Source of the DNA: Alloascoidea africana
Taxonomy: Eukaryota; Ascomycota; Alloascoideomycetes; Alloascoideales; Alloascoideaceae
Length of the DNA: 64,000 nt
NCBI GenBank assembly: GCA_030581615.1
Contig: JAKTTT010000008.1
Coordinates: 1 to 64,000, forward strand
Direction: 5' to 3'
Shown: piece after piece, positions 1 through 22,549 of the stretch
Layout of the letters: each line of letters starts with the position of its first letter
Position numbering within the stretch: the first letter of the stretch is position 1
Notes under the pieces: model-generated
Databases searched by the model: none
What the model was told of the DNA's origin: nothing
What the model saw: the letters and a program-made list of their open reading frames with translations, nothing else
Program-made: the position numbers and the translations under genes

Positions 1-2537
1 TGAGAGTTTGTCTTTTGAAGCTGATGTATTAGACCGCGATCCTGCCTCGACGAACCAGTCTCAAGTGTCGAGCTCCACACATCGTCAATAGAAGAAAGAA
101 TTCAATATACCACAATATCTCTTCTCTCTCCAACTAGCCATGGCGAGCGCAAGTTCCAAATAGATGCGAATTTGAATCAACCACTTTGTGTGAGCTCTGT
201 GCCCGGAATTACTCTCCGTGTATACTTCTGAACGAAGAATGATGGTTTTCTCATTCTGATTGCCAATAGCTATCAACATGTTTGGCACTTCCAGCTAGGC
301 CAGACTGTTCAATCCAAATGTTGTTCAATGTTTTATTATATCCAACACCCTGGAACAGACAAAAATAGATTCGCATTGTATGCCGAATATAGAGGCTGAT
401 TGGCATGGGGCTGGCTAATGGATAAAACGCAACTGACCATAACCGCCGCAGCCAACAAAGACCGAAATCCAAGGCTCTAGCTCACATCCCGACTTGTCAA
501 GTTGGAAGCCATCAAGGTTCAAGTTCTTCTCCTGTCTCTAGGCCAGCCCATGTAACTCCTCCAGAGCCTCCTAGACAAGATATATATGAAGATTTCTCAG
601 ATGAGCTGACCGATACTGTGCAAATCGCTATACTCCCCCTTCTGTGCCAGCATTCACGCCCACTATTCCACGGCTCCTTTAAGCGGACAACACTGGAATG
701 GCTCTTTGGGGCCAAACCGCAGATGCTGACTCCACTCTCAGCGTATAGAGGACATACGCTAGCCAGCACGTCTTCAGACGGGAGGTTTGGACGAGTGTCT
801 ACCATTTATGAAGGAACATGAGAATCAAAGATTGACATGAACGAGTTGGAGCCGAAGACAGCATCGGCATGACTACCTTTGCGATATGGCTTCGTTTTGC
901 GATGCCAGCATCTGGCTTTTCAAACGTAAGTTTGCAGATTATACCAAAGAAAACAACTGGGCAGGATTTGGATTACGTTTTTTAGTACAAGTTTGAGCAA
1001 GTCGGGCTGGGGAATCGTGAAGCATGGTATTTGGGCCAACTTAATCTTCCGTTCCAGTAGACACGGGAATGGGAACAGATTCTGCCTGCACCGGTACAAG
1101 TTCTACAATGCCAATGGCATCAAAGGCGGCGCGTGGGAACGGATAAAAGTTCTTGCATGTTTTGTTCGTTGCTATACTTGTTTCTGTTGTTCACCTTTTG
1201 TTTTTACAAAAAAGCAGATTTCGCTCACTGGCAAGACCAGCAATGAGCGTGAAGCTCTGAGGCTGAGCATCAATTATGCCTGTTGACGATTGATAATTGC
1301 TAAATTAGGCAATGATCCTTTTAGTCTCTGATAATTCAATATTCTGCTTGATCAGTAAAATATGTGTGGTTTCAAGAAGAAAATGTAGGTGGTTAAATTG
1401 AAAATGACCAGAATGAACATATAGTGGAATGAATTTGTAAGGTGAAAAATCACTAACAGTACTATGTCATGAGACTCGAATTAGTCGCTCTTTATACAAA
1501 GCTCATCTCCTCTGTACATTTCAATCAAGCCAAATAGCCAGTGCAAGCCTTCGCTATTTGCTTTATCTGTATGGTATGATTTCCTACTCTGTTTGCCTCG
1601 ACATGCTCTTCAAGCGCTTTTGTTTTCTTGCAGTCGCTTCAACAGATTTCTCTTAAACCAAATAACTTTCCTTGTGTAGCCTGTAATTGCTTTTAACTAT
1701 TTTTTTGTTTATCGTGAGGAAATAGTTCTTATTGTGAATGCCACTATTGGAAAAGCATAAATGAATCTTGACATGCCATGTACATGCTTTGCCTTGAAGA
1801 TACTAGAGATAGTACATAAAAACCAGAAGTTAAGACTTCATTCTAGTTTCATTATTGTAGTTTTATTCACAGTAAACATTCAACTTTCCAACTGAACTAA
1901 CTCTTTATAGAGTATATCCTTTTCATTTTCAGCCACCAGTTTCCTCTTCCAAAAGGAAATGTTAAACCAAAAATGCAAATTAAAAATATACTGGTGTATA
2001 ATGGTAGATTCTTGTTTTATAATTCATTGTCCTTTTTCTTTCATTTGCTCTGTTGCCACAAAAATTTACGATCCCACTTGTGCTAGTATAAGAGCTCCTA
2101 TCATTTATCAATTATTTGAATCAATTTTCGTCTGCTAGATAAACACGACCAACAACTCTTAGAGTACTTTAAAAATTCCACCCAAAGCAACACTAGTACT
2201 TGTCTATTTCCAAAATTATTCTTGTTAAAAAATGGAATCATTTGCAAATTCTAATGATTTAACGAGCAACGGGAAAAGAGTGCCAATTACTTAGGTAATC
2301 ACAGAAAATGATTGTGAATCGAGAGAAAATCAATAGCAAATTATGTTTATTCAAAAATAATACTTCACTGTGTATCTTGGAGGAGAAAGATCTACTGGTC
2401 TGTTCAGACATGCCATGATATAGCACTAGCTGCACTGTACTGCCAACCTCCTCCACACCAACACCAGATTTTTCTCCTTCGTGAACATTCACACACTGAT
2501 GGCTTCCCAGAGTCGTGAAAAGTGACATAAGCTAGAA
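1..2537. other. gene-poor interval, no supported gene
   Basis: Only short open frames on both strands (at most about 97 codons) are present, with no recognisable domain, no intron chain that would extend them and no tRNA-like B box. The last 1.2 kb is clearly AT-rich with many A and T runs. I see nothing I can name here. Confidence 0.6.
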
Positions 2538-3435
2538 ATGAAATCAGCCAAGACAGCCCCCAAAGTGGGCGCCAACACTTATCAAGCAAGAATGGAAAAA
2601 AAGGTAATGATCGCTAAGAAGACAATTCGCAAAGCCGCGGAAATGGCCTCCCGCGGAAAACCAGCTCCATCGGCAATTACCAATGATGGAACGCTTCTGT
2701 ATCTAAAATATCCCACACCTTTCATTGAGAAGGCGAAAGAAGACAGGCTTTGGGAACTAAAGCTTGTAGAAATGTTACACGAAGCCTGCCCCGAACTAGA
2801 GGGCAAGTTAGAGAGAGTTAATCTTTACAACAAAACAGGTGCTCTGATTAAAATGGCCCGGAAGGAAGATGCGACGGCAATGGCAAACCAGGCAAGGAAG
2901 GTTAAGGGTCAAGACCTGCTCTTCCGCTTCCTGCCTTACAAAGGGAACCAAAACACCTTCCACGTCTTCTTCCACACCCCCGACAACCATGGTGGATTGG
3001 TTAGAGTCCTGTAGGAGCCTCTACCCAAATCACAGCGGATCGATCTACGTCCCATATATCGACCAATTGGAAATACCCCACACTCTTATACATTTTGATG
3101 CCCCGGTGGACTTCAAACTGCCCGTCCTGGTAATACGCACAGCGGAGAACCTAAGACGTGAAGAAGAACTCAGGAAACAGGGAAAAGAAATGGAGCTTGA
3201 AAAAGCACTATTAACCCTCCATTTTACAGTTGCTAAAGGAACGGAATGCGACTTTCACCCCGGGAAAACACACGGAGACGGCTGGAATGAGATTGGCTAC
3301 TTCAACTGCCCAAACTTGGTTCTTCGAGGCAAATGGACTGCCGAGGGAGTAACTGAATATGTTCATAGATCTGATACTGGTAAATCTGATGATGAAATCA
3401 AGCGAGAACCAAACAGTGTTGAAGAGAGAATCTAA
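2538..3435 (+). other. two overlapping uncharacterised ORFs
   Basis: Two ORFs overlap in different frames: a 158-codon one (2538-3014) beginning at a true ATG, and a second that is open to 3435. The first is basic at its N-terminus (Lys/Arg-rich, about residues 1-40) and then mixed; the second has a charged Glu/Lys stretch in its middle and an acidic tail. The two together look like one older reading unit, because the compositional character continues across the overlap, but I recognise no family. They sit alone in a gene-poor stretch. They may be a decayed or lineage-specific gene, or a piece of a mobile element; the sequence alone does not decide this. Confidence 0.35.
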
Positions 3436-4598
3436 AATAGATGATAGTCTTACAGAGTCTCTTCACTAAAAGGAACACGGGTCTTTCTTTAATCACAGTA
3501 ACCAGTATTTCAACCTTTCCTTTGTTCGAGGGTTGAAGTGGTAACTTCTGGGGTTTGCAAGAAGTTAGCGAAATACGAATTGGTTGGCTAGAAGAATGCA
3601 AATTCCGGTGCATCATATTGGCCAAGAAGCCAAAGAGCAGTGGCGGTTGTGAGAATTACTACTACACTGGGTCTCACAACAGACGTTAGAATCTACACAC
3701 AGGAGAAACTATATATGGCTTGGCAAGCGAATGGGAAATCACAGCCAGCTTTACACAGCCAGCTTTGTGAGGTTACATGGCTCCATGAGGAATAGTTGGC
3801 GCTGGAATCCATTTGGTTTACAGGGCAGAGGTTCACATAAAGTGATATTCAAAGATCCATTCATCTACTGATTCTCTCGTAGGCGAATATTTCGCTAGGA
3901 TAAGCCGCAAGTCCAGAGAGGGATCAACGCTAGTTCGTTAAAATGGTCGTGGCTCTCGGGAATTGGAAAGAACATGGAGGCTACACTAAAGAACATTGGG
4001 GTGATACAGTTTGAGAAGTATAGATTCGTCTGTGCTTTCGGACCTAACTGTTGAAAATTATCTATTCAACTTGAGGCCTCGAAGAGATACTGATCATAGG
4101 TTTGGCCACATTGTTTGAAACTGCCAACCATGTTTGTCTCTCGTAGACTCTTAGTTGAGTTTCGTTACACATGAGTCTTCCGAGCCCGGCATGCGTGCTC
4201 CAATTGGGCCTCGTCAACGAAATGGTGCTTAAGAGGGGAGACATTAAAAATCTAAAAAACAATACTTAGAACTCAATGGCCAAAGAACAACGCCTATATT
4301 CAGAAATCATCTCTTCGTATCCAGTTATTTTTGATGATCCTTTCCAACTCAAATGTGAATCTTGTTATTTTCATCAGAGGGATATTTTACCTCTTCCACA
4401 TAGGTTCAAGAGTTGAATTCGCACAAAAGAGTCAAAGCGTTGGTGCAACTTGAGCAAATAATGATGAGTTGTGATTATATGAATCTATAAAACATATGCT
4501 AGTTGATAAAGAGGATGGATTTTCTCTACAACAGTTTCCGGGGGGAGCGGCCCCTTTCCTTTATTGCAGAAATCAGACCGCTTGACTTGTTCATGTGT
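3436..4598. other. intergenic, nothing recognised
   Basis: No ORF above 75 codons and no RNA gene signature. It lies between the unrecognised ORF pair and the 3' end of the BCS1-like gene. One short AT-rich stretch near 4240-4500 probably contains the downstream region of that convergent gene. Confidence 0.5.
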
Positions 4599-20472: not shown

Positions 20473-21233
20473 CTAGTTCTCCGTCATTAAAAAGCAGGTG
20501 TTCCCAAATTCCTCTATCGAACATAGCTGTCCAGCTTTAAAAACATCTGTTGTCTCCTTTCCTGTGTCGCTTGGATCAGGAAGAAAGTCTGCAATACACC
20601 CATCAAAGAGCAAATCAAAAGGTAATCTATCAGAAAAGAGTTCGTCATCTCGTTCGTTAACCGACACGGCAGGTGGTTAGAAGTGTGCATTATCTCTGCG
20701 GAATAATGCGGTTCGTTAACAAGATTCGAAAGCTTTTCGTTCAAAACTCCCCCATGCTCATTCTGTGATGTTGGCGTGGAAACTTCTGAATTGGGAGAGG
20801 TAGAAGAGCTGGACAGCTTTTCTGGGGTAATAAAACTCGGTTGTGGAATATCGAGACCTGTCGCTTGTTGACAAATGGATGAAACGAGCATCAATTGACT
20901 TTTCACAGCTTCATGCTGTTTAAGCAACTCCGAGTGAATAACATTAGTCTCGTTCATTTGTGCCCGTAAAGTCGCGTTTTCTCTTTTCAATTTTTCGCAA
21001 CGCTCAGTCAGCTCAACCATCCGCTTCCGCTTTTTTTCTCTAGAGTTGCGTGCGGCTTCCCGGTTTCGCATAATTCGTTCAATTCGTCTCTGCTCTTTCT
21101 CTGTCTCAGTCTGTGCTCTTTTATGGGGAACAAGTGACCCCCGAGGTAAGGGTAGCGAAAGAACTTGCTTTTGTTTGTTGCTGCCGGCTCCCACTGTTAC
21201 AGTGACGGAGTTGGAAATATCATTACTTTTCAT
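20473..21233 (-). CDS. HAC1: bZIP regulator of the unfolded protein response, Ire1-spliced
   Basis: A basic-leucine-zipper factor whose DNA-binding region (EKEQRRIERIMRNREAARNS then REKKRKR) is that of Hac1/HacA. Coding blocks are 21233-20699 and, after a 29-nt non-spliceosomal intron (20698-20670), 20669-20473. Spliced product: 243 residues, ending in a hydrophobic/acidic C-terminus (FSDRLPFDLLFDG ... FLMTEN) like the activation tails of other Hac1 proteins. Unspliced mRNA reads instead to 20514 with an unrelated Leu-rich tail (240 residues in all). Hac1 activates ER chaperone and degradation genes when Ire1 cuts the mRNA and tRNA ligase rejoins it. The two splice hairpins and the promoter element are listed separately. 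The head of the gene faces an 80-bp promoter with TGACGTGGC. Confidence 0.92.
20659..20709 (-). promoter_or_regulatory. Ire1 splice-site hairpin pair bracketing the 29-nt HAC1 intron
   Basis: On the mRNA strand the 5' hairpin (20709-20687) has the stem GCAUUAU/AUAAUGC plus a U-G pair, closing a 7-nt loop CCG|CAGA, cut between 20699 and 20698. The 3' hairpin (20678-20659) has the stem AACCAC/GUCGGUU with one bulged C, closing a 7-nt loop CUG|CCGU, cut between 20670 and 20669. Both loops fit the Ire1 consensus CNG|CNGN. Removing the 29 nt shifts the frame into the conserved-style C-terminus. Confidence 0.88.
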
Positions 21234-21312
21234 AGCTTATAAAATGGTGATGGGACCAAATGAGAGATGCTCGTATCAGTGCTTTTGTATCTGATTCAAA
21301 GCAGGGTAACCT

Positions 21313-21321
21313 GCCACGTCA
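21313..21321 (-). promoter_or_regulatory. UPRE-like element in the HAC1 promoter
   Basis: TGACGTGGC on the HAC1 coding strand, 80-88 bp upstream of its ATG. TGACGTGG is the XBP1/Hac1-type UPR element core. It suggests autoregulation; binding is inferred from sequence only. Confidence 0.5.
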
Positions 21322-21490
21322 TCAACCCCCAAAGCCTATTTTGCCACTGTTTTTGCCACATTCCTGTTCCAAGCCTCCAGACCCAGGACTCGGAATTCTA
21401 TAGAGCTCGCCACATTTGTTTTCACCAGTTCGTCTCTAAAAAATTGGTCTCCAGAGACTGTAAAGGAATGTATGAAGCTACAAAAAAGAA

Positions 21491-21583
21491 AGCCCTACGG
21501 GGGGCTCGAACCCCCAACCTTGTGATGACTGTTATTCCAAAGAACTTAAGAGTCACACGCTCTACCGATTGAGCTAGCAAGGC
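21491..21583 (-). tRNA. tRNA-Lys(CUU) with intron
   Basis: A canonical cloverleaf on the minus strand: acceptor GCCTTGC/GTAGGGC, D-stem GCTC/GAGC with AATCGGTA loop, anticodon stem TGTGA/TCACA, loop CTCTTA-A with anticodon CTT, T-arm GGGGG TTCGAGC CCCCC, discriminator T. About 20 bases (from AGTTCTTT to AACAGTC) interrupt the loop after position 37, the usual tRNA intron site, leaving a 73-nt mature body. A T-rich run follows on the transcribed strand as a Pol III stop. In S. cerevisiae it is the Lys(UUU) genes, not Lys(CUU), that carry introns. Confidence 0.95.
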
Positions 21584-22549
21584 TAGTTTGTGAATATGAA
21601 AACACCTACTAAGTCAGATCCTCTGGATTTGATGTTACATAGTAGATCAAGCTTTATACAGACTACTTTTACGGACTGAAATCCTAACAAACTAGACTCT
21701 GTAATCTAGCGAGTATAACAATATATAGTTGATTTAGATATTTTGGAAGCACTACTTAAAGATCCTGGTTTCCCTAAGGGAAAAGGGGACAAGGAAGAAA
21801 AGAATAAAAAAGAAAATTAATTAAGAAGAAAACTCAAAGAAAAAGTGAGAACAGCTAGACTGGGCTAGTGTTCTTATAATTGACAGCGATGTAAGAAAAG
21901 ATCTAACGACAAAGAAAGCTTCTGACCCATAGCAGAGTATACATCCCACGAACATATATAAGTCTGATTTTATGTTTTTTGTTCCGATACAAAATGATCA
22001 CATGGTCAAAAAAACTATCTTTCATAAGTCACCATTGAATATCAGAAATATGCCAAATTTACTATAGTGTATTCTCAGATCCATAGGCTATCATACATAA
22101 CTAAAAGCAAATCCGTGGCTATAGAAATGGGGTGGTGGTGGTGGTGGTTCAAAAAAAAAGTGCATGCGATCACTGTGCCTTATAAAAGTTTCACTGCTTT
22201 TAGTCTTTTCTAACTATGTGAGTTGTAGTTCTGGAGCTGTGTCCTTTTCCTTGGGCGTAAAACTGCTGTCTGGTCTTGATGAATTTTATAGTATGGTGAG
22301 GTCCATAAGATGTTCCACTGCCGTTTGTATTTCAAGGTAACCTTCTTATTTTATAATTCCTTCTCATTGCTAATGTTGTACATTGTCTTGCTGATTGATT
22401 CAAGTATCTTGGAGATACCAGGGACGCTTCTTTAAGATCATCAAATTGTTCAAAATCATCTCGATCCAGCACAAAATTACCGTAAAGGTCGGTTTATCAA
22501 AGATTTGGTCAAGCAACAGCTTTAAAATAATTAATTCATCATTTAATTT
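21584..22549. other. intergenic, AT-rich, with a GGT microsatellite
   Basis: Nothing coding is supported. A pure (GGT)n tract lies at about 22129-22148, followed by an A run. Such tRNA-flanking stretches are common landing sites for mobile elements, but I recognise none. Confidence 0.5.

Follow-up and report, generated by a model that had tools for sequence, protein, structure and literature searches.

A HAC1-type gene with a candidate Ire1 intron

The stretch of DNA analysed here, the window, comprises 64,000 nucleotides (positions 1 to 64,000) of contig JAKTTT010000008.1, referred to as C8, from the yeast Alloascoidea africana. On its minus strand lies a bZIP gene of the HAC1 type, the unspliced frame of which (20514..21233) encodes 239 amino acids. 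The HAC1 identity that had been proposed in the initial annotation is borne out by the Pfam domains bZIP_1 (E=1e-10) and bZIP_2, both scoring above the curated cut-offs, by database matches, which at E<=0.001 comprise 20 relatives and include two named HAC1, and by the placement of the protein among HAC1 proteins in a phylogenetic tree. Directly upstream of the gene, and outside the switch described below, a tRNA gene is located on the same strand (21490..21584). It was called tRNA-Stop(tta) by the prediction tool and has been reassigned by eye to what is probably an intron-containing tRNA-Lys(CUU).

Two hairpins in the HAC1 message bracket a segment of 29 nt (CAGAGATAATGCACACTTCTAACCACCTG; 20670..20698, minus strand) with the features of an Ire1-type intron. 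The 5' hairpin (20687..20709, minus strand) presents the loop CCG|CAGA (20701-20695, cut between 20699 and 20698) on a stem of eight pairs, one of them G-U. The 3' hairpin (20658..20679, minus strand) presents the loop CTG|CCGU (20672-20666, cut between 20670 and 20669) on an imperfect stem of 2+5 pairs around one bulged base. In S. cerevisiae, the Ire1 motif is described as CNG|(C/A)NGN in a stem-loop (PMC8104961). Both 7-nt loops of the window gene match this consensus, and cutting each after its third base frees exactly 29 nt. In silico removal of these nucleotides joins 21233-20699 to a second exon (20473..20669, minus strand) and yields a frame of 243 amino acids with its stop at 20473. 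The two tails part at residue 180, where 60 residues follow in the unspliced and 64 in the spliced form. Thus, the pair of loops, their spacing and the opening of a 64-residue tail by the frame shift, as put forward in the initial annotation, have all been reproduced. The unspliced tail contains a hydrophobic stretch (SFLIDYLLICSLMGVLQTFFLIQ; 20571..20639, minus strand) with a 19-residue hydropathy maximum of 1.92. The spliced tail carries the motif LPFDLLFDG (20599..20625, minus strand), which is probably part of an acidic activation tail.

In the RNA-zipper work of Peschek from 2015, the exons around the HAC1/XBP1 intron are reported to pair with each other. The window gene has exon pairing of this type: an exon-1 arm (20710..20739) and an exon-2 arm (20632..20661), both on the minus strand, form a stem of -19.8 kcal/mol as compared to a null mean of -8.8 kcal/mol, and none of 1,000 shuffles was as low. 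Folding the joined exon flanks also produces this stem. When a larger region is folded to its minimum free energy, the 3' hairpin is absent and a longer exon-exon stem is formed instead; when the 3' piece is folded alone, the same hairpin stem appears with one extra pair within the loop.

A frame-changing hairpin pair of equal quality was found in 1/4,000 dinucleotide shuffles of 21233-20300, and in 17/4,000 with looser stems. Moreover, CNGCNGN loops with at least five stem pairs each and a distance of 14-100 nt were sought in 448,000 strand-bases that surround the five HAC1 loci of the genome (see below). The survey revealed 1,338 CNGCNGN words, 43 of them with five or more stem pairs, and three close hairpin pairs. 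One of these pairs belongs to the window gene and one to the paralog on C48; the third lies in the C19 region on the minus strand, opposite to the plus-strand HAC1 gene. The HAC1 genes of C6 and C19 were missed by the survey because their 3' stems fall below the criterion. A genome-wide search for the 5' site (TTATCCNGCNGNGATAA, at most one mismatch) led to six places, namely the five HAC1 genes (three exact and two one-mismatch hits) and one place on C3. Since the reversed control pattern likewise hit six places, this search neither shows nor excludes further Ire1 substrates.

Five HAC1-like loci in one genome

When the protein of the window gene was compared with the 23.18-Mb assembly, six matches were obtained, and these fall on five loci: C8 (the window), C6, C19, C48 (two pieces) and C2. 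An equivalent of the 5' hairpin is found in all five genes, with a broken stem in C2. Both loop motifs are present at four of the five loci and delimit candidate introns of 29 (C8), 32 (C48), 41 (C6) and 26 nt (C19), the 3' sites of the three paralogs having been chosen by eye. All four lengths leave a remainder of 2 on division by three, so that removal would shift the frame identically. The 3' hairpins of C6 and C19 are weak when taken alone (-0.9 and -2.2 kcal/mol). The exon-exon stem is present in all four genes although its sequence differs between them; per 1,000 shuffles, 0 (C8), 7 (C6), 0 (C19) and 2 (C48) were as strong.

The gene on C2 differs from the other four. Its 5' stem has a mismatch and reaches only -2.4 kcal/mol as compared to -6.9 to -8.8 kcal/mol in the others, and an exon-exon stem was not found, 497 of 1,000 shuffles being as strong when the second flank was set at an assumed spacing of 32 nt. 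Because the long HAC1 introns of the CTG clade had been overlooked at first owing to their length (PMC6222058), a distant 3' site was also considered. Starting with the 5' loop, a stretch of 1,200 nt contains three CNG(C/A)NGN words. One is the loop itself and the other two have 0 and 1 stem pairs, on which account a distant site was rejected. The frame that would correspond to the spliced form stops after 62 codons, and the unspliced frame is open for 170 codons. A single-sequence structure prediction for the C2 protein reached a mean pLDDT of 59.6, with the tail below 60, and was not used. As far as can be judged from these sequences, three sister genes appear to keep the switch of the window gene, and C2 appears to have lost it.

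The initial annotation had described the intron as 'the UPR switch of this yeast'. An Ire1-type frame switch is indeed what the sequence indicates. However, the definite article is unsupported because there are five HAC1-like loci, four of them with both loop motifs, and because the window gene is divergent within the family (see below). We are highly confident that the window gene, as one member of a five-gene HAC1 family, contains a cytosolic intron of 29 nt that is spliced by Ire1.

Ire1, tRNA ligases and UPR-element-like motifs

The Ire1 RNase family has one match in the assembly, an open reading frame of 1105 amino acids (L010, ORF 640-3957) with kinase and RNase domains. An alignment to S. 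cerevisiae Ire1 (2rio, 3fbv) revealed that K992 and H1061 are kept, with residue numbering derived by hand from PMC8104961. The position of S. cerevisiae Y1059 is occupied by alanine; in S. cerevisiae, this residue has been tied to RNase specificity if changed along with K992 (PMC8104961). Identities to the named relatives of the protein lie at 37-53%, in some cases across no more than 39-40% of the length, and no close relative was found among them. Two tRNA ligase genes that are 35% identical are present on C18 (L016, 305500-310500) and C61 (L015, 42000-47000). The assignment of the intron to the Ire1 type in the initial annotation is supported by the consensus loops and by their rarity in shuffled sequence, and the genome encodes Ire1 and two tRNA ligases. 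The C18 ligase reads SIILIH instead of HVTLAH at what we take to be the first HxT-like motif of the phosphodiesterase domain. Judging from this motif, the C18 enzyme may have a specialised role or be incapable of end healing on its own.

The upstream regions of several genes were searched for motifs linked to the UPR. A UPR-element-like site, TGACGTGGCA, is located 88 nt upstream of the ATG of the window gene (21312..21321, minus strand). Counting both strands, TGACGTGG occurs once in the window and TGACGTG six times. CAGCGTG is present at -171 and -584 upstream of an HSP70 gene on C66 that, with its signal-like N-terminus, looks like KAR2; of the 12 HSP70 matches, the upstream stretch was examined for four, among which the start of the C117 gene is unclear, and CAGCGTG was present only in the C66 gene. 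TACGTGG is located at -276 upstream of ERO1. The putative sites are short and prone to chance; they precede the KAR2-like gene, ERO1 and the window gene, the basic region of which is altered (see below). Among the HAC1 genes, two of the five (C8 and C48) have such motifs, and none was found within 657 nt upstream of C6 or within 1,000 nt upstream of C19 and C2, the latter length having also been examined for C8 and C48. As only two of the five genes have any, the motifs were rejected as a sign of HAC1 autoregulation.

Pairing between the intron and the 200 nt upstream of the ATG, with 5' ends being assumed, was not above chance in any of the four intron-bearing genes (P 0.22-0.64). Such pairing was therefore rejected as a translational brake, and the unspliced form may instead be silenced through its tail.

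Unspliced tails and possible dual coding

The tails of the unspliced proteins are partly hydrophobic. The 19-residue Kyte-Doolittle maxima are 1.92 for C8, 2.01 for C48, 1.59 for C2, and 1.65 and 1.74 for the database proteins P0001 and P0002; in the hydropathy plot of PMC4138184, a line is drawn at 1.8. These values are in line with selection on the unspliced frame itself. Such selection would add to the explanation by an Ire1-spliced intron and would not replace it: the hydrophobic tail could carry the nascent chain together with its mRNA to the ER membrane, by analogy to HR2 of XBP1u, or could mark unspliced Hac1 for destruction, and C2 would have lost splicing and retained only the hydrophobic tail. 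We regard this as a possibility that falls somewhat short of an even chance. The short and barely hydrophobic tails of C6 and C19 (0.59 and 0.55) argue against it. Among the database proteins, 65 of 73 contain the 5'-site peptide according to the search pattern; in 16 of these (P0001, P0002, P0013 and 13 named Lipomycetaceae proteins), the tail is 60 or more amino acids long and its maximum reaches 1.45 or more, which is not so in the other 49.

The third codon position of the spliced frame is the second position of the unspliced frame, so that synonymous drift in the former should erode the hydrophobicity encoded in the latter. When synonymous codons were sampled gene by gene, a tail that is both open and hydrophobic was obtained with P 0.005 for C48; with P 0.12, however, C8 taken by itself remains within the null. 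Where C8 and C48 share a residue, the codon is the same about as often as expected by chance in exon 1 (23/71 vs 23.0 expected) and more often in exon 2 (14/22 vs 7.9 expected, P 0.005; Fisher's test against exon 1, P 0.009), with all 14 matches among the first 16 sites and none among the last six. In the other five pairs there is no clear excess in exon 2 (6/13, 6/15, 18/41, 6/16 and 9/24 vs 4.7, 5.7, 15.9, 5.7 and 8.3 expected). Two of these pairs are somewhat above expectation in exon 1 (31/72 vs 24.2 and 39/92 vs 30.8), and the codon null is therefore rough.

Within a block of 25 codons around LPFDLLFDG, C8 and C48 are more alike than the null both in their unspliced frames (P 0.0006) and in their nucleotides (50/75 identical, P 0.00013), and the values are similar with the codon usage of exon 1. 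However, the block was picked after the match had been seen, and a narrower one gives 0.015 and 0.0075. The unspliced tails of C48 (125 codons) and C2 (170 codons) were each found open in only 1/5,000 dinucleotide shuffles. For C48, this null ignores the overlapping spliced frame, and with the spliced frame kept fixed, the value is P 0.08. Gene conversion between C8 and C48 would be an alternative source of their likeness. The spliced tail, for which an alignment with relatives had been proposed in the initial annotation, is in part common to C48, namely in LPFDLLFDG. In the initial annotation it had also been reasoned that conservation of the unspliced tail and not of the spliced one would speak against the intron, and a third outcome was obtained, as both tails of the window gene resemble those of C48. 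Taken together, the comparisons suggest dual coding, which we consider a serious lead and not a result.

In 13 Hac1 proteins of the Lipomycetaceae (P0059, P0061-P0068 and P0070-P0073), the annotated frame continues for 213-282 amino acids past the 5' Ire1 site and contains a hydrophobic stretch (1.46-2.23). Compared to P0062, the tails of eight other Lipomyces proteins are 72-91% identical, with 70-89% in the part before the site, and those of P0061 and P0071-P0073 are 23-37% identical, with 42-49% before the site. A wider occurrence of dual coding across the Hac1 proteins of this family is possible in the light of these alignments.

An extension of this reading would be a branched pathway, in which one Ire1 splices four HAC1 messages, some of them with a membrane-seeking unspliced tail like that of XBP1u. 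Without splicing, C2 would then act as an Ire1-independent, membrane-tethered factor or as a built-in repressor, as if the logic of animal XBP1u and ATF6 had been reinvented in a yeast. We consider this rather unlikely and offer it as speculation.

Relationships among the copies

One clade (100/100) of a 48-row tree unites the five loci with the database proteins P0001-P0003; within it, P0001 joins C48 (97/40), C8 stands next to that pair (95/54) and C6 pairs with C19 (82/44). The second support figures of these groupings (SH-aLRT) are low, and the long branches C2, C8 and C48 are of unsure placement. If the tree holds, the split between C8 and C48 would predate the split from the species of P0001. 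The branch of the window gene is long (1.21), and its basic region reads REAARNSR as compared to RQAAHASR in the family, on account of which its DNA targets may differ. By this comparison, the window gene ranks among the more divergent members of the HAC1 family, and it is probably a specialised paralog and not the main UPR factor.

Given the altered basic region and the long branch, the window gene could also be drifting, as a redundant duplicate that has kept its intron by descent and is rarely expressed or spliced. However, both of its forms are open frames, its hairpins and exon-exon stem are intact, its bZIP domain scores above the curated cut-offs, and its position beside C48 and P0001, for which SH-aLRT support is weak, suggests that the duplication is old, all of which makes such a decay improbable.

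Concerning the origin of the five genes, no protein matches besides HAC1 itself were detected between the five regions at E<=1e-8 (64 kb for C8 and 40 kb for the others, frames of at least 150 amino acids). A recent segmental duplication was rejected since only HAC1 matches between the regions. Elsewhere in the assembly, a second RPB2 copy is present at 81% amino acid identity (C11:57750 and C71:29986), as are second copies of the genes for AMP deaminase (70% identity) and biotin ligase (51%), for which C26:92224 and C27:106637 are listed. The duplicated RPB2, AMP deaminase and biotin ligase genes may be taken as signs of an old genome duplication or of a hybrid origin. An ancient whole-genome duplication fits these other duplicate genes; for HAC1 itself it is only a possibility. 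That the five HAC1 genes derive from a mixed assembly of more than one organism, each with fewer copies, could likewise account for the second RPB2, AMP deaminase and biotin ligase genes, but it is highly improbable in view of the single matches found for the Ire1 RNase family and for the ERO1 family, the even composition of the HAC1 regions (five regions of 40-64 kb with a GC content of 0.424-0.444 and comparable trinucleotide usage), the poor fit of five loci to a mixture of two genomes, and the single clade formed by these loci with P0001-P0003. We read the genome as an old duplicated genome and not as a mixture of organisms, which is an interpretation and not a proof.

Proposed mechanism

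Upon ER stress, Ire1 would cut both loops of the window-gene message, and the exon-exon stem would hold the two exons together until a tRNA ligase joins them. The frame would thereby switch from the hydrophobic tail to the acidic tail with LPFDLLFDG, and the product would be an active bZIP factor. What can be read from the DNA is that two hairpins fit the consensus, that removal of the intron switches the frame, that the exons form a stem, that three paralogs have the same arrangement and that an Ire1 gene is present. Cleavage in vivo, ligation, dependence on stress and the activator function are inferred from the known pathway. In S. cerevisiae, HAC1 is cut by Ire1 and joined by tRNA ligase (PMC6627864). 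Silencing of the unspliced form by its tail could involve a degron, as in S. cerevisiae (PMC5114014), or membrane tethering, as in XBP1u (PMC4138184).

With its single Ire1 match and four candidate HAC1 substrates, this yeast would allow one to study how the output of one sensor is divided and whether the paralogs cooperate. In descriptions of S. cerevisiae Ire1, HAC1 is the one message that is cut (PMC10608004, PMC8104961), and a contrary report has not been reproduced (PMC10608004). With C2, which has a long unspliced frame and no 3' site, the debated role of the unspliced protein becomes directly testable. Moreover, HAC1 genes with a short intron and without 5' UTR pairing make it possible to test how the messages stay silent and how they reach Ire1.

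Comparison with known systems

The window intron itself is of a known type. Like the window gene, HAC1 of Yarrowia lipolytica encodes a bZIP factor and has an intron of 29 bp. The Yarrowia intron is spliced on ER stress, and the review that states its length (PMC10608004) agrees with the parallel drawn in the initial annotation. The Yarrowia protein (P0041) also has a similar 5'-site peptide, RHPAVM. However, the hydropathy of its unspliced tail, and of that of its tree neighbour P0034, is only 0.64, unlike the 1.92 of the window gene. As far as the published descriptions are covered by the sources cited here, this yeast departs from them in the number of its HAC1 copies, in that one of these lacks a 3' site, and possibly in dual coding. 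Other yeasts are described in these sources with one HAC1 per species, and that of C. glabrata is expressly called 'single' (PMC6116095), as compared to the five loci found here. Among the titles and abstract openings of the open-licence literature that were searched, none described a yeast with more than one HAC1 gene. A role for the unspliced frame is not a new idea: it has been argued in the case of vertebrate XBP1, and Aspergillus hacA has been discussed in the same light (PMC7580959).

HAC1 of S. cerevisiae shares with the window gene the Ire1 motif in a stem-loop (PMC8104961). In contrast, its intron of 252 bp pairs with the 5' UTR (PMC10608004), whereas such pairing is at the chance level here, and its unspliced tail is a degron of 10 amino acids (PMC5114014) instead of the 60 amino acids of the window gene. 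For hacA of Aspergillus fumigatus, which is described as a single gene, a function of the unspliced form has been argued and overlapping frames have been discussed, and the word 'hydrophobic' does not appear in the main text of PMC7580959. Animal XBP1 resembles the window gene in its short intron, in the coding capacity of both frames and in the hydrophobic stretch of the unspliced tail (PMC4138184, PMC7580959). The likeness to HR2 of XBP1u lies in hydrophobicity, and the membrane targeting that it would imply for the Alloascoidea protein is putative.
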